DNA from: Thermophagus xiamenensis
GTDB lineage: Bacteria; Bacteroidota; Bacteroidia; Bacteroidales; Marinilabiliaceae
Assembly (NCBI RefSeq): GCF_900112795.1
Contig: NZ_FONA01000021.1
Coordinates: forward strand, 1-64,000
Reading direction: 5' to 3'
Length of the DNA: 64,000 nt
This document shows positions 1,039-43,729 of the stretch, one piece after another. The number at the start of each line of letters is the position of its first letter. Positions within the stretch are counted from its first letter, which is position 1. Below the pieces are notes generated by a model. It was not told where the DNA came from. It saw only the letters and a list, made by a program, of their open reading frames with translations, and ran no database searches. A program made the position numbers and the translations under genes.

Positions 1039-1085
1039 GATGAAACGAGCATGGCAACTTAGGGTTGTCACAAAAGAAAATGTAT
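1039..1085 (+). repeat. dispersed element, copy A (P1 half)
   Basis: The sequence begins GATGAAACGAGCATGGCAAC and continues through GTCACAAAAG and AAAATGTA. It matches the P1 half of the copy at 5605-5740. GGCAAC and GTTGTC within it can pair (one G-T pair). A weak P2-like stretch (CATGC at 1159 and TAAATAAAA before the ATG of 1215) follows about 75 bp later, separated by a GGCAGAA tandem and unrelated sequence. Confidence 0.6.
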
Positions 1086-1096
1086 AAAACGACAGA

Positions 1097-1111
1097 GGCA
1101 GAAGGCAGAAG
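1097..1111 (+). repeat. GGCAGAA tandem (copy 1)
   Basis: Two adjacent GGCAGAA units. The same tandem occurs at 46600-46613 in another intergenic space. It sits between the P1 half of dispersed element A and the DoxX-like gene. Confidence 0.4.
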
Positions 1112-1214
1112 AAGTTTTTAATGAATCTGCAGGAAAATCTTCTGATCGCATCTATCATGCCTATTTTCAAAAGAAGTAAACATTAACAACACTAAATAAA
1201 AAATTTATATACCC

Positions 1215-1625
1215 ATGAATTTTCAAGACAAAACAATAACGGTAAGTTATAAATCGGTAGTAATTCTTCGTGTTATGGTCAGCCTGATTTTTATAGTGGC
1301 TAGTTTTAGTCATTTTTTCAAACTCGAACATACCGTCAGCCGAATAGAAAGTGCTAAACTGGGGTTTATCGGGCACATGCTCGGCTCGCCCGAAACGGCA
1401 GTGATTCTTTCCGGCATTGTTATGCTTATAGCAGGAATTTCATTACTTATAGGTTTTAAAACGAGATGGGCAGCCATTGCCCTTATCGCAGTTTTAATCC
1501 CCATTACCTTAACCATTCAGGTAGGACAAATGGCAACATTAGGACCGCTTTTCAAAAATATTGCCATCCTTGGTGGACTTATTTTTTTTAGTATGAACCC
1601 AAAACTAAATGACCAAACATCATGA
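1215..1625 (+). CDS. DoxX family membrane protein
   Basis: This is a 136-residue polytopic inner-membrane protein of the DoxX/SURF4-like type. Four hydrophobic segments are visible, near residues 15-35, 60-80, 85-102 and 115-130. The second helix region carries the Gly-rich, hydrophobic pattern usual for DoxX. Family members have been linked to redox and sulfur metabolism, but no single reaction is established. The ATG at 1215 is preceded by an A/T-rich run, as is usual in Bacteroidota. Its TGA overlaps the ATG of the next gene by 4 bp, so it is translationally coupled to a DsrE-like protein, which supports a sulfur or redox role (inference). Confidence 0.75.
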   Translation: MNFQDKTITVSYKSVVILRVMVSLIFIVASFSHFFKLEHTVSRIESAKLGFIGHMLGSPETAVILSGIVMLIAGISLLIGFKTRWAAIALIAVLIPITLTIQVGQMATLGPLFKNIAILGGLIFFSMNPKLNDQTS

Positions 1626-2394: not shown

Positions 2395-2450
2395 CAATAC
2401 CTTATTCAGGGTATTGACAGGTAATGTGTGTAAGTTTGCACAAAACAATT

Positions 2451-2503
2451 CATGCAGAATACCTGAAACCAACGACTTAAATAAAATTTACACAAATGAC
2501 ATG
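2451..2503 (+). repeat. dispersed element, copy B (P2 half)
   Basis: CATGCAGAATACC, then CCAACGACTTAAATAAAATT and TACACAAATGA align with the P2 half of the copy at 5691-5740. As in other copies, the element runs directly into a start codon (ATG 2501). The preceding TTTGCACAAAAC may be a trace of P1. Confidence 0.5.
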
Positions 2504-2748: not shown

Positions 2749-3105
2749 ATGAAGATAGAAAATGCCAAAGCTCAGATGCGTAAAGGTGTGCTGGAATATT
2801 GCATTCTTTCGGTGCTATCCAGAGGTGATGCATACGCCTCTGACATCATTAAAGACCTTAAAGAAGCACGTATCATCGTGGTAGAAGGAACGCTTTATCC
2901 ACTCCTTACCAGATTAAAAAATGCAGGGCTTCTTTCCTACCGATGGGAAGAGTCGACACAAGGTCCTCCAAGAAAATATTATGAGCTGACCGACCGTGGT
3001 CAGGAATTTCTTCAGGAACTTGACAAATCCTGGAAAGAGTTAGTAGATTCTGTTAATTCTATAAATGAAAAAAAACATAACGATGAAAAAAGTAGTTACC
3101 ATTAA
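2749..3105 (+). CDS. PadR family transcriptional regulator
   Basis: The 118-residue protein is a compact PadR winged-helix repressor. The start MRKGVLEYCILSVLSRGDAY marks helix 1, followed by the DIIKDLKE recognition region. The wing is in EGTLYPLLTRLKNAGLLSYR, and RKYYELTDRG is the classic PadR strand-and-turn motif. The C-terminal helix, which makes the dimer, is short as in PadR-s1 proteins. Its end overlaps the next gene's start by 23 bp, showing tight coupling to two PspC-domain membrane proteins. It probably represses its own unit through the palindrome at 2354-2372 (inference). The effector is unknown, probably an envelope or drug signal. Confidence 0.9.
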   Translation: MKIENAKAQMRKGVLEYCILSVLSRGDAYASDIIKDLKEARIIVVEGTLYPLLTRLKNAGLLSYRWEESTQGPPRKYYELTDRGQEFLQELDKSWKELVDSVNSINEKKHNDEKSSYH

Positions 3106-4042
3106 CATATCAGGTCATTCCTTTTATATTGATGAAGATGCCTTTGCACGGCTGGATGATTATCTTAAAAAACTGGAAACCTGGTCGCAAGACAAGGAGA
3201 GCGGCCGGGAAATATATTCCGATATTGAAGCACGTATCAGGGAATTGTTCGAAGAGAGAATTAACCCTTCCACTTCGGTCATAACGACTACTTTGGTGGA
3301 CGAAATTATCGCTATTATGGGTCATCCGGAAGATTTCTCGGAAGAAGGTACTGACGAACCATTCGACGGACAAAAATCTAACACATCCTATTCTACTCCT
3401 CCGCCCCGACGTCGCTTATACCGCGATATAGAAGACCGCGTCATCGGAGGTGTTTGTTCAGGAATAGCAGCCTATTTCAACATCGACAGGGTTTTTGTTA
3501 GGGTATTGTTTGCCATTTTGCCTTTTTTAAGCTTTGGTGCCATCATACCCATTTATATTATTTTGTGGATAGCCATCCCACCTGCACTAACAGCGACCCA
3601 ACGACTGGAAATGCAAGGCCATGATGTTAATATTTCAAATATTGAGAAAAATATTCGCAATGAATATTATAAAGTAAAAAACAAATTCCAGCAATCGGAT
3701 GCTTACCGAAGAGGAGAAAACTATCTTTCAGGCATTCAAAAGCGAGACCGCACAGCTTTGATAATTGCATCGGTAGTTATAGGCGTTATAATCATTGGCA
3801 ATTTAATAAACATCCCTTTTAATTTGGGCTGGGCACCGGGGTTCCATGTTAATTTACCCTTTGTACATATGGGATTTCCCGGTGTTTTGCCTCTGACAGT
3901 AATACTATTAATTTTAGGACTGGCTTTCCGCACTGCCCTGAAGGGATTTCTGATATTGATAGGTGTGCTGCTAGTTTCGGCTTTTCTGTTCAAAATGATC
4001 GGGATTTTTATTTGGCCCCATTTAATTTTCCCTCATCTTTGA
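3083..4042 (+). CDS. PspC-domain membrane protein, first paralogue
   Basis: ATG 3083 is preferred over ATG 3065 because it aligns with the start of the paralogue at 4101 (MKKxVxINxxGHxF). Residues 1-95 form a hydrophilic N-terminal domain shared by both paralogues, with DEDA near residue 17 and two acidic helices. A PspC domain follows at about 108-172, marked by LYRDIEDRVIGGVCSGIAAY and two membrane segments. Three or four further hydrophobic segments fill residues 225-319. PspC proteins sense envelope stress or bind partner proteins at the inner membrane. Pairing with a PadR repressor is a recurring arrangement in Bacteroidota. Its start overlaps the PadR gene. Confidence 0.8.
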   Translation: MKKVVTINISGHSFYIDEDAFARLDDYLKKLETWSQDKESGREIYSDIEARIRELFEERINPSTSVITTTLVDEIIAIMGHPEDFSEEGTDEPFDGQKSNTSYSTPPPRRRLYRDIEDRVIGGVCSGIAAYFNIDRVFVRVLFAILPFLSFGAIIPIYIILWIAIPPALTATQRLEMQGHDVNISNIEKNIRNEYYKVKNKFQQSDAYRRGENYLSGIQKRDRTALIIASVVIGVIIIGNLINIPFNLGWAPGFHVNLPFVHMGFPGVLPLTVILLILGLAFRTALKGFLILIGVLLVSAFLFKMIGIFIWPHLIFPHL

Positions 4043-4100
4043 AACTCTTGACTATTTAATGCATTTTTCATTACCATAAAATATTAGCAAACCTGACATC

Positions 4101-5495
4101 ATGAAAAAAACCATACAAATCAATCTAGCCGGACATGCTTTTAGCATGGACGAAGATGCATATGATCGGCTTAACACCTATCTGGAACAAGTAAAAGCCA
4201 AACTTGGGATGACTGCAGAAGCACAAGAAACCTTTGAAGACATCAACCTTCGTATTGCCGAGCTCTTTAGAAGCATCCATCCCGATGCCACAACATCGGT
4301 TACCATTGAAAATGTAGAAGAAGTCATCAAAACATTAGGCGATCCGGCCGATTACGATACCCCTTCCGACCCAGATGACTCATCAAGCGCCTCATATGCA
4401 AGAGAACCTTACCGAAAAAAACAGCTATTCAGAGACCCTGACAACCGAATATTGGGTGGAGTCTGCAGCGGATTGGGTTATTACTTTAACATAGACCCAA
4501 TAATTTTTCGTTTACTATTTATCCTGGGAACATTTTTCTATGCATCATCAATCCTTATTTATCTAATACTATGGATTGCGATTCCCAAAGCCAAGACCTT
4601 GCAACAACGGATTATGATGACAGGCGTTTCGGCAGGTATTGAATCATCAGGGAAACGACCGGCAGTGAGAAGCCAAAGCAACGATTTAATTAAACGCACC
4701 CTTCGCATAATTTCAATAGTTGCCGGTATAATCCTGATTGTTCTCTCATTTATATCCCTCACCGGATTAATCATGACCTTTTCCATGACAGATTTGGTCT
4801 TCGAAAAAATATTTAGTCATGAAATATGGCTTCCTGAAATTGAACAACTATTCCTTTTACCTGAACAGCAAATAATGGTATTAATCGGCTCACTTCTAAT
4901 CGTTGGCATTCCGTTATTGGTAATATTTTATCTGGGATTATTTCTTGTTTTTAGATTTAAAAAGGGTGCAGTAACAATCCTGGTCACCTCACTTATTCTA
5001 TGGTTAATTGGAATAGGCCTGATAAGCTATTCTGCCATTCGAATGGCCACCGAATATTCCGCCAAAATGGAAATAGAAGAACGAAAATTATTGGAATTAC
5101 CATCTTCGGACACTATCTATATAAAACCTTCAGCTTCGTCACTTAAATTAGGGGAAGGAGAACAAATATTTAGCAGTAATGGTATCACTATCAAAAATCA
5201 AAAAGAAGGATTAGTTCTGGTGGGGACACCCAAATTTAACCTGATTAAAAATGCAAAAAATTTCGAAATATCAATCCGGAAAAAGTCGCGGGGTCGCAAC
5301 TCAGAAGAAGCTCTTAAAAATGCTGAAAGGATTGAATATTTTTTTCTGCAGGATGATTCTCTTTTATTACTCGACCGCTATTTCAGCATCCAGAATCCGG
5401 GGATATTGCGAAACCAGACCATTGAGGTAAATATTCAAATCCCAGAAAACAAACATATCGTTGTAGCAGATGAATTTAAATATTTGATGCAATAG
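4101..5495 (+). CDS. PspC-domain membrane protein, second paralogue with extra C-terminal domain
   Basis: This 464-residue protein has the same N-terminal module as its upstream neighbour (residues 1-95). The PspC domain is at about 108-170 (LFRDPDNRILGGVCSGLGYY). Two membrane hairpins occupy about 198-225 and 250-315. The last 140 residues are soluble and beta-rich, with a pattern reminiscent of DUF4097-like beta-solenoid domains; they should lie on the periplasmic side, but this is by eye. The gene pair probably arose by tandem duplication, with the second copy gaining the C-terminal part. It is the last gene of the PadR unit, 58 bp after its paralogue. Confidence 0.75.
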   Translation: MKKTIQINLAGHAFSMDEDAYDRLNTYLEQVKAKLGMTAEAQETFEDINLRIAELFRSIHPDATTSVTIENVEEVIKTLGDPADYDTPSDPDDSSSASYAREPYRKKQLFRDPDNRILGGVCSGLGYYFNIDPIIFRLLFILGTFFYASSILIYLILWIAIPKAKTLQQRIMMTGVSAGIESSGKRPAVRSQSNDLIKRTLRIISIVAGIILIVLSFISLTGLIMTFSMTDLVFEKIFSHEIWLPEIEQLFLLPEQQIMVLIGSLLIVGIPLLVIFYLGLFLVFRFKKGAVTILVTSLILWLIGIGLISYSAIRMATEYSAKMEIEERKLLELPSSDTIYIKPSASSLKLGEGEQIFSSNGITIKNQKEGLVLVGTPKFNLIKNAKNFEISIRKKSRGRNSEEALKNAERIEYFFLQDDSLLLLDRYFSIQNPGILRNQTIEVNIQIPENKHIVVADEFKYLMQ

Positions 5496-5518
5496 GGATA
5501 GAAAAGACAGAGTCAGAA

Positions 5519-5592
5519 AAAGTGATTAGTCACTAGTCAACAGTCATTAGTGTTAATGGAATAGTAACTAATGAACTAACCACTAATGATTA
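5519..5592. repeat. ATTAGT-rich imperfect inverted repeat
   Basis: The stretch is made of repeated ATTAGT, TCACTAGTCA and ACTAATG words arranged as an imperfect inverted repeat (GTGATTAGT at the left, CACTAATGATTAC at the right). It has no coding frame. A related motif, GTAGTAAATAGT facing ACTATTAGTGACTAC, lies at 28668-28699. It separates the PspC unit from the dispersed element and the DUF4252 gene. Confidence 0.4.
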
Positions 5593-5604
5593 CTTTTAAG
5601 AAAC

Positions 5605-5740
5605 AATATATCAATGAAGTAAGTAAAATTTATACGGATGAAACGAGCATGGCAGCTTTTGCCACAAAAGAACATGTAAATTTTATTAAGCCATGCGAGT
5701 TCCATTCGGCCAATGAGTTAAATAAATTATATACGAATGA
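5605..5740 (+). repeat. dispersed element, copy C (P2'-P1-P2, best preserved)
   Basis: It reads half a P2 (CAATGAAGTAAGTAAAATTT, TATACGGATGA), then P1 (GATGAAACGAGCATGGCAGC, TTTTGCCACAAAAGAAC, ATGTAAATTTTATTAAG), then a full P2 (CCATGCGAGTTCCATTCGGC, CAATGAGTTAAATAAATTAT, ATACGAATGA). The repeating unit is 99 bp. GGCA-N5-TGCC inside P1 can form a small hairpin. The P2 end contains the ATG (5737) of the next gene, so the element supplies its translation start region. Confidence 0.7.
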
Positions 5741-6210
5741 AAAAGATATTACTAATAATTACTGTTTTATTAGTTGCAGCTCCGGCACTTAGGGCTCAAC
5801 TTAGCGCATCTGAAAAATTATATGCCGGTCTGGAAGGCGCCGAAGGTGTAACCATTCTCACACTATCCAAAGATATTATTGATCTGGTGGATATGACGGT
5901 TGATGAAGAAACTAAACAAGTAACCGGTCCATTGCAAAAAGTAAAGCTAATGATATGCAATGAAGCGAATGGCTCCTCTGCCATAGGCTCGGTATTAAAA
6001 ACAATGAGAAGCAGGCCTTACAAAGAAATTGCAGAGGAAGATATAGAGGATACGGACAGTCGGGTTTTCGTCCTCCGTTCAGGAAAAAGGATTAAAGAAT
6101 GTCATATTATTGACCACAACGAAGGGAAACTGATTATGCTTTCATTTTACGGCAATTTTAAGGTAGAAGATATCGACAAATTTAAACAAAAGGCTGACGA
6201 CATAAGATAA
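5737..6210 (+). CDS. DUF4252 domain exported protein
   Basis: The 157-residue product has a signal peptide (MKKILLIITVLLVAAPALRA, cleavage near residue 20). The mature part of about 135 residues fits DUF4252, a family largely confined to Bacteroidota and of unknown function; these are small periplasmic or lipid-anchored proteins with paired beta-alpha units. There is no lipobox Cys here, so it is probably soluble in the periplasm. The ATG at 5737 is embedded in the end of a P2 element; no other start fits. A second secreted protein follows 51 bp later and may be cotranscribed. Confidence 0.7.
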   Translation: MKKILLIITVLLVAAPALRAQLSASEKLYAGLEGAEGVTILTLSKDIIDLVDMTVDEETKQVTGPLQKVKLMICNEANGSSAIGSVLKTMRSRPYKEIAEEDIEDTDSRVFVLRSGKRIKECHIIDHNEGKLIMLSFYGNFKVEDIDKFKQKADDIR

Positions 6211-15094: not shown

Positions 15095-17935
15095 TTAGAA
15101 TCGTCCCATGGGGAAAGGCCTGTCGCCAGGGGGTCCCTCCATAAGTCCGGGACGTTCCGGTCGCTCCATACGTTGACCGAAGAAATCGCGAAAAGTCCAG
15201 GTAAAGGTAACCATAGCATAACGTTGCACTACCAAAGAACGACTCTGTTCTTCATAAGTTTCGGTAACAGTACGCGATATACTTTGGTTTTCTTTTAGAA
15301 TGTCATAAACCCCAAGTTTTATCTCCCCCGATCTATCCTTAAAAATTTTTTTCCCTAAAGATGCATTCAGCAACGTATAATTGGGATCAATAGATTCCGA
15401 CAACCCCACATACCAAAGATGGTTCAACGTGGAATTAAAAACCCAGTCATCACCAAAAATCCAGTTTACTTTACAACCAGAAGTCTGGGTATAATAACTT
15501 TCTTCTTGAGTATCTAACGTCGAATGGACCTCATCCCATCCACCATTCCAAAAAAGGGAAAAATCCAAATCCTCACTAATGTTACTGGAAAGCTGAACAC
15601 CCTGATTAAATGACCATGTTTCTTTTTTAGTAACCTGATCATTGACCATGCCTGGCGTTCTATTATAGCCCAAATCAGTATTAAGAGACAGGTTGCTACC
15701 CAACCAAGTTACCGGTGTTCCAAAATTAATCACGCCTTTTAAATCCCAATAGCCATCCATGTTTTCAGGAATGGTCAGCTGACCACCATCAGGTACGGTA
15801 TAACCCTTCGGTACCGATTCATTATTGGTATAGGTATGATTAACAATATAATCGGAACCAATTTCCAGGAATAGAATAAAAGCAACATTTCTGCCGGTTT
15901 CAGCATTGACGTCGGTATACCGAGCCATGGCACGATGGATCGTTTGCTGTGAAAGGTTGGGGTTTCCGGTGGTAAGGAACAATGGTTCGCTATTATCAAC
16001 CACATCCTGCAACTGATTGGCACTTGGCTCCTGGGTCGAAGCATTATACATGGCCATAAGATTTTTACCCTCACCTGGTTTCCAATTAAGCCAAATACGC
16101 GGTCTAAAACTGGTAAAACTTTTTTTCAGGTCATAGGATTCCGGATATTCACGATTTGCCTTAAGTTTCGATTTTTCTGCCGACAATGATAGAGTAATAT
16201 TAAAAGCACCTTTATTAAATCGATATCCAGCTTCCGAAAAATAGGTTTCGAACGTGCTGGAAAATACATTAGACAGAGTGGGATCCAAAGTATATTGATA
16301 CAGCTCATTGGAAAAAACCCACTTCTCATTTTCCGAATCGGAGAATGAACCACCTAGGGTAAGCATCACCTGGCTGTATTGACCCACAGGTTCGGTATAA
16401 ACTAACCGGCTACGGATACTGCTGGTGGTATTCTCAATAAGCTTATCCAGGTCATAATCGGTTAAAATATCTGATTCACCGAACGTTTCCTCAATCGTCT
16501 GTTGCTCTTCCTCTCCTTCTTTTTTATTATAGGAATTATTAACCATTAAAGAAATGGTACGTCCTTTTAGTCCAAACTTATGCCTATAAATTAATGTATT
16601 TCCCAAATTATATCCGTCATTCTCCTTGTCCAAATCTGTCTCCGTAGCATTTAGCAAATCATCTCCATCAAAAGTTTCACTATAACTGAAACTAAAACTC
16701 TCATTATTCTGAAAGCTAGCCTGAGGCAGTAATATGATAGAGTTATTTTCATCGATATCGTAAATAATACGGGCATTAAGCCGATTATTAAAATTGTAGA
16801 ATCCGGATTCACTTTTTTCAGAATAAAACTTTAACGAATCGGTTCCATAGAGAAAATCTCTCCATGTTTCAGATTCATTTTCATTATCAATATAGTTAAA
16901 GAAGTAGCTGGCACTCACTGTCAGCTTTTCACCAAACTTATTTTGGTAGTTAATACCAAATGAATTGGTACTGTTGATTCCGCCATTCGAGGCCATTTGG
17001 ATTGACTGGTCCAGCGGGCCTCTCAGGGCTCCACCACCGCCACCTCCGCCACGACGGCCTCCCCCCATTCCGGACATAGCCCCCAGCATGTCTTCACGAG
17101 TAAAATTCTGCCGGTTTACATTATTAAATGAGGTAATGATGGAAATCCGATTGTCACCATTAAATTTGTTATACATCCCTCCTGCTTGGTAATAATGGTC
17201 GGTACCGTAACCGGCAAACAACTTTCCAAACTTACCGTTACGACGAGATGGCTTGGTAATAATATTCATGGTTTTTTGACTATTGCCATCGTCAAACCCG
17301 GAAAATTGGGCCTGATCACTCATCTTATCAAACACTTGCACCCTTTCAATAATTTCTGCAGGCAAATTTTTAAGAGCAATGGACGGATCGCTTCCAAAAA
17401 ATTCATAACCATCTACAAGCACTTTTTTTATTTCTTCACCGTGTGCCTTTACTGTACCGTCTTCCACAACAATTCCCGGCATTTTGGTCACCAGGTCTTC
17501 CACACTGGCATCTTGATGGGTTTTAAAAGATTCGGCACGAAATTCCGTGGTGTCCCCAACCACTTTTACCGGTGGTGCCCAATCCTTAACTGTCACTTCT
17601 TTTAGGTTATATGCTTCGGGCTGCAAACCAACGGTTGCCTTTTGATAACCTCCTTTTACGGCGATAACACCTCCCTTGGTTCTATAGCCAATAAATGAAA
17701 TACGATAATAATAATTCCCTGCTTTGGGCAGTTGAATCTTAAAAAATCCTGATTCATTGGTTACTCCAAAATATTGTCGGCTTGCATCCTCGCGATCTTG
17801 GATAATAACATTCGCTTGAGACAATCCTTTTCCGCTTATTGAGTCTATTACCTGAATCCCTATAGTGTATCCACCATCCTGACCGACAGCGCCAAGCGAG
17901 ACAAATATCAAAATTAACAATAAAACCTTTCTCAT
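15095..17935 (-). CDS. outer membrane beta-barrel protein with carboxypeptidase-regulatory-like domain
   Basis: From ATG 17935 (MRKVLLLILIF) the product has about 946 residues; the ATG at 17959 adds residues before the signal peptide and is unlikely. A CarboxypepD_reg-like beta-sandwich covers about 25-105. A plug-like region follows (VEDLVTKMPGIVVEDGTVKA near 135 and PAEIIERVQVFDKMSDQAQF near 190). The rest is a barrel of the OMP_b-brl_3 type, as in Bacteroidota TonB-linked receptors. A Gly/Arg tract (GGGRRGGGGGGG) sits near residue 295. The end is Pro/Gly-rich. It lies downstream of a LytTR two-component pair on the same strand, a frequent arrangement that suggests regulation by it. Substrate unknown. 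Confidence 0.85.
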   Translation of the reverse strand: MRKVLLLILIFVSLGAVGQDGGYTIGIQVIDSISGKGLSQANVIIQDREDASRQYFGVTNESGFFKIQLPKAGNYYYRISFIGYRTKGGVIAVKGGYQKATVGLQPEAYNLKEVTVKDWAPPVKVVGDTTEFRAESFKTHQDASVEDLVTKMPGIVVEDGTVKAHGEEIKKVLVDGYEFFGSDPSIALKNLPAEIIERVQVFDKMSDQAQFSGFDDGNSQKTMNIITKPSRRNGKFGKLFAGYGTDHYYQAGGMYNKFNGDNRISIITSFNNVNRQNFTREDMLGAMSGMGGGRRGGGGGGGALRGPLDQSIQMASNGGINSTNSFGINYQNKFGEKLTVSASYFFNYIDNENESETWRDFLYGTDSLKFYSEKSESGFYNFNNRLNARIIYDIDENNSIILLPQASFQNNESFSFSYSETFDGDDLLNATETDLDKENDGYNLGNTLIYRHKFGLKGRTISLMVNNSYNKKEGEEEQQTIEETFGESDILTDYDLDKLIENTTSSIRSRLVYTEPVGQYSQVMLTLGGSFSDSENEKWVFSNELYQYTLDPTLSNVFSSTFETYFSEAGYRFNKGAFNITLSLSAEKSKLKANREYPESYDLKKSFTSFRPRIWLNWKPGEGKNLMAMYNASTQEPSANQLQDVVDNSEPLFLTTGNPNLSQQTIHRAMARYTDVNAETGRNVAFILFLEIGSDYIVNHTYTNNESVPKGYTVPDGGQLTIPENMDGYWDLKGVINFGTPVTWLGSNLSLNTDLGYNRTPGMVNDQVTKKETWSFNQGVQLSSNISEDLDFSLFWNGGWDEVHSTLDTQEESYYTQTSGCKVNWIFGDDWVFNSTLNHLWYVGLSESIDPNYTLLNASLGKKIFKDRSGEIKLGVYDILKENQSISRTVTETYEEQSRSLVVQRYAMVTFTWTFRDFFGQRMERPERPGLMEGPPGDRPFPMGRF

Positions 17936-17984
17936 AGCTTTTAAATTCGCATGATACATTTATAAAAAAACTACCACAATCATT

Positions 17985-18090
17985 GTCAGTAAAAAATTCA
18001 TTTAATTTATTGGTCAGATGGAACTCGCATGACAAATTTTTTTATTAAGGTTCTATTGTGACACCATTTATTGTCATACTTATTTCATCG
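17985..18090 (-). repeat. dispersed element, copy D (P1-P2)
   Basis: On the minus strand, P1 reads GATGAAATAAGTATGACA then GGTGTCACAATAGAAC. P2 reads CATGCGAGTTCCATCTGACC, AATAAATTAAATGAATT and ACTGACAATGA. It ends 50 bp before the ATG of the outer-membrane protein gene. A shortened P2-like string, CATGCGAATTTAAAAGCT, sits directly before that ATG. Confidence 0.65.
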
Positions 18091-20834: not shown

Positions 20835-20960
20835 TTCCATCCGGCAAATAACATAGAAAATATTTTATGCGGATGAAATGAGCAAGGCAACATTATCCAC
20901 CACAAGAAAATGTAAAAAATAATAAGGCCATGCAAGTTCTAATAGACTTATGCACTAAAA
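20835..20960 (+). repeat. dispersed element, copy E (degenerate P2-P1-P2)
   Basis: TTCCATCCGGCAAATAACAT then TTTATGCGGATGA is P2-like. P1 follows as GGATGAAATGAGCAAGGCAA, CCACAAGAAAATGTAAA. A second decaying P2 begins GCCATGCAAGTTC. It points toward the 3' end of the kelch gene, and no start codon of a gene follows, so this copy has no obvious client. Confidence 0.6.
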
Positions 20961-34352: not shown

Positions 34353-34517
34353 TCATTTTTTCTTACCCCCCACCACTAACAATAAATATAGTAAATATAA
34401 AATACCTGTTCCCATAAGTCCTATGGCGATCCTTTCCATTGTTACAGAACCACCATGAATCATACCAAATCCTAGAACGACAAACAACACAGCTACTATG
34501 CCCAATTTGGTTTTCAT
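34353..34517 (-). CDS. 54-residue two-helix membrane protein
   Basis: ATG at 34517, TGA ending at 34353. Two hydrophobic segments are visible: residues 6-20 (GIVAVLFVVLGFGMI) and 32-50 (IGLMGTGILYLLYLLLVVG). A short loop HGGSVTMERIA joins them and the end is GKKK, which by the positive-inside rule puts both termini in the cytoplasm. It has a TATCTTTG promoter box, a leader of about 105 nt, and a P2 element that ends at its start codon. No family is recognised. Confidence 0.65.
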   Translation of the reverse strand: MKTKLGIVAVLFVVLGFGMIHGGSVTMERIAIGLMGTGILYLLYLLLVVGGKKK

Positions 34518-34557
34518 CGTATTAAATTTAACTCATTTGTCAAATAAGACCTGCATG
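34515..34557 (-). repeat. dispersed element, copy F (P2 half)
   Basis: On the minus strand it reads CATGCAGGTCTTATTTGACA then AATGAGTTAAATTTAATACG and ATG. It aligns with the P2 of copy C with a short gap. The ATG is the start of the 54-residue gene. Confidence 0.6.
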
Positions 34558-37430: not shown

Positions 37431-37721
37431 CATTTTATGATTTCTGAAATAAAATTTACGTAACTAATTGGTAGAATGAAAATCGCTTGAAGTCATAAGC
37501 ATATACTATATTTTTTGTGACAAATTTTCTTGGTCATGCTCCTATCATTATCATATTTTCCCCAACTCCAAGGCATAATACGCTATATAACGGCTCCTCA
37601 GCCTTCTCACTTCTACATTTACACTTTCATGCATGTTCTTTAATAACAAACATTCTTGTTCATGCCCTTTTTATCTGTTAACTTTATAATAGCGCAAGAG
37701 GAGTGTAAAATATCTATGATT

Positions 37722-42915: not shown

Positions 42916-43024
42916 CTACTTTATAAAACGTTTTTATTAATCCCAGTATTGGGATTAATACATTCGCTAAAGCAAAAACTTAGATGGTGGGACTTCCATT
43001 TCTATTCCATAAAATTTATCTAAT

Positions 43025-43729
43025 TCATAGGTATGGTGGAACTCGCAAAATATAGCCAACAGTAGGAATATTTTCAATTTTCAACCGAGGATCACTTTTT
43101 AAATAGCGTCTCAACTTGCTAATAAAAACATCTAAGCTTCGTCCGTGAAAATAGTCCACATCCCCCCAAAGCTGCATTAATATTTCATCACGCTTTACCA
43201 ATTGATTCTTACGGTTACAAAGCATGCGCAGAACTTCACACTCCCGACGCGTTAATCGTTGCTCTTTATTTTCGAATCTTAAAAGTTGATGTGTAAAATC
43301 AATAGAAAACAATCCCAAAGGGATCTCTTGGTTAAACTGTTCTTTTGAATTATAGCTCAAACGTCGTTGAATAGCATTAATTCTCCATAATAGCTCTTCT
43401 GGATCGAAAGGTTTCACTAAATAATCATCAACCCCAAGTTCAAAAGCTTTTCGTTTATCTTCTTTTTTTTCACTATGACTAATAATTATTATTGGAATAA
43501 AAAAATCTTTCTCGCGAACTCTCTCTGTTAAACTAAAACCATCAAGCCCAGAAAGAGCAACATCAAAAATGCAAAAATTAAAGTGACCGTTGCAATAACT
43601 ATCAAACCCATTAAAACCTTCCACACAATGTTTCACACGGTATCCATTAGACCTTAATTGTTCTTTTAGTTTGGGTCCAAATACCAGATCATCTTCAACC
43701 AGTAAAATATTTAAAATTGGATATCTCAT
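43025..43729 (-). CDS. OmpR-family response regulator (orphan)
   Basis: From ATG 43729 (MRYPILNILLVEDD) the product has about 234 residues. The receiver domain has LLVEDD, the phospho-acceptor Asp in CIFDVALSG, and DDYLVKPFD. The winged-helix domain covers about 135-232 (LTRRECEVLRMLCNRKNQLV, RSLDVFISKLRRYL, PTVGYIL). No kinase gene is adjacent; the multi-PAS kinase at 46790 or the kinase at 31141 could be a partner, but this is speculation. Confidence 0.9.
   Translation of the reverse strand: MRYPILNILLVEDDLVFGPKLKEQLRSNGYRVKHCVEGFNGFDSYCNGHFNFCIFDVALSGLDGFSLTERVREKDFFIPIIIISHSEKKEDKRKAFELGVDDYLVKPFDPEELLWRINAIQRRLSYNSKEQFNQEIPLGLFSIDFTHQLLRFENKEQRLTRRECEVLRMLCNRKNQLVKRDEILMQLWGDVDYFHGRSLDVFISKLRRYLKSDPRLKIENIPTVGYILRVPPYL

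Follow-up and report, generated by a model that had tools for sequence, protein, structure and literature searches.

A gene-free, two-hairpin mobile element with ATGAA ends that supplies start codons in Thermophagus xiamenensis

We analysed a 64,000-nucleotide stretch of Thermophagus xiamenensis DNA (the window), in which the start codon of a gene for a DUF4252 protein is the terminal ATG of a short repeated element. Directly upstream of this gene, at 2749-5495, lie genes for a PadR regulator and then two PspC-domain proteins. A profile built from 124 non-redundant units, out of 193, gave seven matches with E<1e-3 at six places in the window; in a single control, a window with its bases shuffled in 100-nt blocks, no profile match fell below E 7. 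The features, in order of position, are these:

1040..1217, plus strand: longer-type unit, left half clear (profile 1040-1089, E 2e-6)
2443..2499, plus strand: possible worn right half beside the ATGAAG start at 2501 (profile E 0.22 only)
5600..5642, plus strand: right end of the longer-type unit that precedes the complete copy in tandem (profile 5612-5642, E 0.28)
5638..5642, plus strand: left joint pentamer ATGAA, doubling as the end of the preceding unit (boundary profile, sequence)
5638..5741, plus strand: complete element of the short type, including the left joint pentamer (profile E 5e-24)
5643..5700, plus strand: hairpin 1, ACGAGCATGGC ... GCCATGCGAGT, with a GA/GA internal loop (arm pairing, 257 units)
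5701..5741, plus strand: hairpin 2, guide TTCCATTCG ... element 3' end CGAATGAA (guide TCG complementary to end CGA)
5737..6210, plus strand: DUF4252 gene, start codon provided by the element's terminal ATG (ORF; PF14060, E 9e-13)
17986..18088, minus strand: worn element (profile E 2e-13)
20835..20957, plus strand: worn tandem pair (profile 20873-20957, E 4e-6; 20835-20877, E 1.5e-4)
37449..37547, minus strand: worn element (profile E 6e-8)
43009..43047, minus strand: right half of an element (profile E 6e-5)

The first-pass annotation had placed a two-part repeat at six sites. Four of these, at 1040, 5638, 17986 and 20835, were recovered by the profile; the copy given as 2451-2503 is marginal, and that at 34515-34557 is unsupported, its best score (E 0.78) being on the opposite strand. 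The start-codon junction proposed at 34557 is lost with it, while the junction of the copy given as 5605-5740 is real and lies at 5737. The elements at 37449 and 43009 were absent from that list. The profile score of the 1040 unit comes from its left half only; judged by eye, it probably extends rightwards to the ATGAA at 1215, where a DoxX-family gene (1215-1625, PF07681) starts. The copy at 17986..18088 lies upstream of an outer-membrane beta-barrel gene (15095-17959, minus strand, PF14905). The stretch 5600..5642 was found alone at eight other loci in the genome, and the left part of its unit was not recognised.

A scan of the 3.9-Mb T. xiamenensis genome with the left arm ATGAAACGAGCATG, allowing at most one mismatch, gave 335 matches, compared with one for the reversed pattern, and the right arm CATGCGAGTTCCATY gave 169 matches, compared with none; the abundance of the arms is far above chance. 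When 5600-5745 (146 bp) was compared with the same genome by BLAST, at least 75 stretches matched at E<0.001; array fragments make up many of these, and the figures come from 83 listed rows, with 40 of 326 first-look candidates scored. Among the matches listed in a pattern scan of named genomes, the element was present in Anaerophaga thermohalophila, Marinilabilia, Draconibacterium, Mariniphaga and Bacteroidales/Prolixibacteraceae assemblies, and BLAST at E<=1e-4 found it in 14 of 61 genomes of the family and order, T. xiamenensis included. Across 395 genomes of the phylum, the exact right-arm pattern occurred in 13: 108 times in T. xiamenensis, 10 times in a genome of another class (G215) and once in each of 11 others, which is about the level of the reversed control (seven genomes, one match each). 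The G215 copies have the same build, with guide CTG and end CAG in 9 of 10, a count whose pattern presupposes these ends, which were first read in the loci; three of the 10 lie at the start of a frame of at least 80 codons. One IMG/VR contig (L354:440-582, minus strand) holds a copy ending at the start of a small gene, and its other genes presumably resemble those of Mu-like phages, making this short viral contig a possible vehicle for the spread of the element. There was no match in the plasmids searched with the window copy or in the phages searched with an Anaerophaga array. We did not find the element described in a full-text literature search largely confined to open-access papers.

Each unit opens with ATGAA, followed by hairpin 1 (ACGAG...CGAGT) and hairpin 2 (TTCCATYNG...CNRATGAA), and the short type measures about 90-105 bp. 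In longer types the left arm is kept, the right part is replaced by other sequence, often including a TTAGTCATTAG-like minisatellite, and the usual end is TATACNR ATGAA. A degenerate TTAGTCATTAG / GACTAACGACTAACCACTAA minisatellite, variable in length with constant ends, was also seen at 5500-5600 of the window and in L001, L006, L022 and other loci. With anchoring on internal motifs only, conservation began on the left at ATGAA (73 first-of-array ends) and stopped on the right at ATGAA (135 last-of-array ends). Beyond the right end there was merely a preference for A in the next position (104 of 135), and outside the left end an A-rich stretch lay about 9-14 nt before the left ATG. The boundaries are sharp and the ends, ACGAGC and CNRATGAA, lack terminal inverted repeats; end profiles and arm pairing place palindromes near them. 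Units chain into tandem arrays in the same orientation, in which neighbours share the ATGAA joint. Read from the left ATG, the units have an open frame of 4 codons (GCATGAC type) or 13-17 codons (GCATGGC type), and the earlier suggestion of a relic coding repeat is unsupported since this frame ends so early.

Evidence of mobility came from a site in Anaerophaga at which an element (L111) sits inside another repeat; 14 other copies of this repeat in the loci examined carry no element. In these empty copies the flanking sequences are 5 nt apart in 12 cases and 4 nt apart in two, showing that insertion was precise. The nearest empty form (L179) reads TTGAA, whereas in the occupied site the element has TTGAA to its left and ATGAA to its right, the two forms being otherwise identical save for one base in a T run; the remaining empty forms read TTGCA, TTGTA or similar, so that TTGAA occurs in L179 only. 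Other related loci showed small changes only (L107 vs. L198, and L104/L121 vs. L161) or one vs. two or more units at the same gene (L097 and L194). The host repeat (L111:4540-4800) is itself a dispersed Anaerophaga sequence of about 150 bp with near-inverted-repeat ends like TGAGCCCGGTCTAAAAAGCAT and ATGCTTTTTATACTGCACTCA; it looks like a classical MITE, and the 14 other copies seen lie in L103, L105, L134, L136, L144, L147, L169, L179, L181 and L182.

The left pentamer was ATGAA in 70 of 78 first-of-array units. In five of the eight exceptions the right pentamer was still ATGAA, so the two joints differ; right ends departed from ATGAA in 9 of 78 units (left ends in 8 of 78), at least two of these being misplaced anchors. 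These few sites suggest that the target contributes the left pentamer and the element the right one, without ordinary target duplication. An element that is short, non-coding, present in high copy number and bordered by ATGAA on both sides could also be a MITE moved by a DDE transposase that duplicates a fixed ATGAA target. We consider this very unlikely, given the lack of terminal inverted repeats and the five units of eight in which only the left pentamer differs from ATGAA. The BrickBuilt MITE of Porphyromonas gingivalis likewise belongs to the Bacteroidota and contains an internal minisatellite, as the longer type of our element does, but it differs in having terminal inverted repeats like those of IS5-family elements, 19 copies and target duplications in three of four testable copies (PMC4596501). 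In proposing a mobile leader or an integration product, the first-pass annotation was right in substance.

The data support a fold in which two adjacent hairpins span the element from one end to the other. Hairpin 1 has the form ACGAG-stem...stem-CGAGT, with a stem based on CATG in most copies and resembling TCCCGA/TCGGGA in a compact subtype (L040, L293 and G215). Counted pair by pair, its internal loop was G-A in 245 and A-G in 236 of 257 units; the arms hardly vary, so support from covariation is limited here, and the wobble asymmetry of this hairpin is uninformative. In hairpin 2 an internal guide, TTCCATYNG, pairs with the element terminus, CNRATGAA. The guide triple and the triple just ahead of the terminal ATGAA were exactly complementary in 124 of 157 units and the match was broken in 33, compared with a mean of 42 and a maximum of 58 in 2000 shuffles, which ignore relatedness. 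Six distinct guide/end combinations contributed: TCG/CGA, CAG/CTG, CCG/CGG, CTG/CAG, ACG/CGT and TAG/CTA. Among first-of-array units, the guide fitted the unit's own end in 40 of 55 and the triple on the target side in one of 55. Consensus folding of 124 units returned hairpin 2 as the single helix with RNA parameters (energy -3.0) and no helix with DNA parameters. When units were circularised, 47 of 60 in the sample had a bottom-strand fold no less stable than that of the top strand (mean z -2.8 vs. -2.3, 20 mononucleotide shuffles each), and one pair is G.T on the bottom strand and an A.C mismatch on the top in 240 of 257 units. The G-rich strand by GC skew accounted for 33 of 55 cases in T. 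xiamenensis (p 0.18) and 71 of 107 in other genomes (p 0.0009), figures confounded by gene direction.

On balance, we think it somewhat probable that the element is mobile but non-autonomous and that its moving form is a folded single strand. An enzyme acting in trans would cut after TGAA at the feet of both hairpins, a circular single-stranded intermediate would form, and the circle would insert 3' of a TGAA with which the guide can pair. This logic would be that of IS200/IS605 elements and their transposase-free derivatives, and we favour it for three features: the left end is bordered by the target, the target sequence recurs at the right end, and this right end pairs with an internal guide. 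In IS200/IS605 elements, an internal guide 5' of the hairpin sets the position of cleavage, acting both on the target at the flank and on the final bases of the right end, with which it interacts (PMC6006769). Because the terminus equals the target, new copies can insert at the ends of existing ones, giving rise to arrays.

Arrays in a single orientation are also expected of integron cassettes, and we considered whether the unit could be an ORF-less cassette on whose folded bottom strand a tyrosine recombinase acts. Core and inverse core are complementary in attC sites. The reverse complement of our unit can be laid out in the same way, from the start TTCATYNG to an inverse core CNRATGGAAC, a TC spacer and a GCATG arm, and then through a CATGC arm and a second TC spacer to GT|TTCA. 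Its inverse core is complementary to the beginning of the same unit (the same 124 of 157 units), the more stable bottom strand, helped by the G.T pair, fits, tyrosine recombinases were present in 30 of 30 genomes tested, and this route would explain the guide-terminus match and the bottom-strand preference about equally well. We nonetheless hold it to be rather unlikely. The core, GTTTCAT, departs from GTTRRRY, the crossover position is at or after GT|TTCA and not G|TT, and the targets are genome-wide and specific. An integron integrase over the family's curated cut-off was found in 0 of 30 genomes, and weaker matches to the integrase model are non-specific, occurring also in 14 of 14 control genomes. 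Of 30 recombinase loci examined, none contained the element. Compared with integron cassettes and attC sites (PMC8876359), the element shares a favoured folded bottom strand and oriented arrays, and differs in its core, its crossover, its specific genome-wide targets, the lack of an integrase over the cut-off and the lack of a gene within the unit.

Returning to the IS200/IS605-like reading, we searched for an enzyme that could move the element. No transposase was seen inside any element copy. Across 1.3 Mb of loci, there were three cases in which a left end was followed, with no other left end between, by a right end more than 260 bp but less than 4 kb away, and none of these intervals held a transposase (two were read, and the third is the 1040 copy of the window); 67 left ends had no right end within their own record. 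Clustering of 965 ORFs for recurrent neighbours revealed no mobility gene by eye. No family tracked the element among the Y1 matches (61 plus 15 genomes), IntI-model matches (30 genomes) or Y2 matches (30 genomes). An IS91 or rolling-circle origin was rejected: the Y2 model PF04986 had no match in G000, G013 and G028, the three genomes with the most first-look candidates, despite matches in 14 of 30 genomes.

T. xiamenensis, with its 335 left arms, had no Y---Q--HH protein among its Y1 matches, the only one being a RAYT-like protein of the YIHMNP type. This gene (L035:1000-2240) lies between copies of a GTAG-type palindrome of a different family (GTAGGCGTGGATTTGTAATCCACGCC). Paired palindromic arms, high copy number and the presence of this one RAYT-like gene would be compatible with a REP/REPIN element mobilised by a RAYT (TnpAREP). 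We judge that explanation very unlikely, as the GTAG foot is absent from the unit, the RAYT-like gene is flanked by GTAG palindromes of another family, and the Anaerophaga genome G028 (589 first-look candidates) has just two Y1 matches, one a 159-aa Y---Q--HH frame and the other a stretch inserted into a frame about 1000 aa long. With REP/REPIN sequences (PMC6006769), the element shares inverted palindromic arms and hundreds of copies, and differs in its missing GTAG foot, its fixed target and the other palindromes around its own genome's RAYT-like gene.

Four genomes (G007, G015, G016 and G074) had element matches, yet no Y1 match, and Y---Q--HH proteins were also present in genomes where BLAST found no match to the element. 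In 60 Y1 loci examined, a subset of all Y1 matches, no Y1 gene was enclosed by element ends, and copies lay nearby at one place only (L091 = L208), on one side and 0.3-0.6 kb away; the Y1 protein there reads YILNQEVHH, fitting the Y---Q--HH signature. In G032 (L355:2601-2933), an element copy abuts the C-terminal remnant of a Y1 gene, YIENQDKHH, which fits it too; the rest of the broken gene was not seen on the element's other side, and an unbroken relative of the protein is encoded in L229. Y1 proteins of subclass 1.2 carry Y---Q--HH and are described as near IS200/IS605 transposases, without IS features or a known IS of their own (PMC6006769). By its sequence signature, a Y---Q--HH Y1 transposase of this subclass is a candidate for the element's enzyme, and the element may give a partner to a class of Y1 proteins that is without one. 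Y1 matches within very long frames of L224 (G062) and L225 (G061) were set aside, being by eye stretches inside a methylase-like protein. In both, the ones read among such frames, the in-frame IS200-like stretch lies beside repeated QASSL/TSSLSEN peptides with the look of palindromic repeats in translation. G005, G022, G040 and G052 likewise have Y1 matches in very long frames.

The element is real, abundant and mobile, and in kind it is most like the PATEs (palindrome-associated transposable elements) of Haloquadratum, which are related to IS605-type transposons, while differing from them in anatomy, target and consequence. Both lack terminal inverted repeats, have palindromes near their ends, occur in high copy number and are too short for a transposase (PMC3119063); PATEs also lack target duplication, as our element may do, and we count it as a further likeness that PATEs move although the IS200-type transposases of Haloquadratum are mostly broken. 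In contrast to PATEs as described there, our element is filled by two hairpins along its whole length, its internal guide covaries with the terminus, its terminus equals the target, so that arrays form, the target is a start-codon sequence, and a cognate IS was not found.

To place the ends relative to genes, we compared terminal right ends with the other ATGAA sites in the same DNA, a gene start being an ORF of at least 80 codons in the first T. xiamenensis sample and in the other genomes. The 41 terminal right ends in T. xiamenensis fell 17 times at starts, 20 times in intergenic DNA and four times inside genes, compared with 103, 320 and 1049 for the other ATGAA sites. In other genomes the 102 terminal right ends divided into 53, 46 and three, compared with 215, 611 and 2280 for the remaining sites. 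When starts were compared with intergenic sites only, the odds ratios were 2.6 (Fisher p 0.006) and 3.3 (p 6e-8), respectively. A second T. xiamenensis sample with a 60-codon cut gave 14 starts, 16 intergenic and none inside among 30 clear ends, with a background of 59, 236 and 474. Starts make up only 20-26% of the background sites at starts or in intergenic DNA, and, measured by odds, element ends are enriched two- to threefold at starts among these tolerated sites. Copies in intergenic DNA and copies at start codons are about equally frequent. The start-codon effect would follow from the choice of ATGAA as target, as Met-Lys and Met-Asn starts begin with ATGAA. It needs no targeting beyond ATGAA plus selection, and selection against other sites probably adds to it.

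Comparison with family models confirmed starts among the proteins whose genes begin on an element ATG. Alignments ran from residue 1 in PurA (residues 1-419 to profile 1-424), Dxr (1-384 to 1-384), QueA (1-351 to 1-343) and an Rrf2 regulator (1-131 to 1-131), and from residue 2 to profile position 1 in MiaB; that of CysK opened at residue 9 and profile position 4, and that of an RluA-family protein only at residue 43. At dxr, element sequence runs to the ATG in both Anaerophaga genomes, and four Marinilabilia-type orthologs without the element have the same start codon. On insertion at a start, the gene keeps its start position and the element comes to lie between the gene and its old upstream region. 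The earlier idea of a portable translation start region was sound in substance, in that the element's 3' end is ATGAA and supplies start codons.

That about half of the terminal ends abut start codons, that the arms are conserved and that the hairpins can also form in RNA might instead point to a conserved leader RNA that regulates genes and was spread by some other route. This is scarcely probable: about half of the ends are not at starts, the genes downstream of element copies are unrelated to one another, mobility is shown by empty sites and arrays, the clearest covariation links an internal guide to the element's own end, and Rfam gave no match in the window at the gathering threshold. On the same evidence the regulatory RNA of the first-pass annotation is unsupported, while the element may still have a regulatory side effect. 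In substance our analysis covered the check proposed with that annotation, for further copies, a relation to starts and conserved pairing, and its reading was not refuted by it.

Tentatively, the element may stand for a class of mobile DNA that is new. Such a single-strand cassette would be free of genes, consist of two hairpins and bring along the base-pairing guide for both its terminus and its target; with ATGAA as target, it would spread as the start codon and leader of core genes, moved by a Y---Q--HH Y1 protein, an integron-like recombinase or another enzyme. The covariation of guide and terminus predicts that the ends chosen, and perhaps the target as well, can be reprogrammed. Normally a gene is broken by an insertion at its start codon; here the end of the element rebuilds the start. 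Many copies can consequently sit at gene starts and swap leaders, those of core-metabolism genes included, and the element leaders constitute a natural series of leader replacements that can be compared across orthologs.
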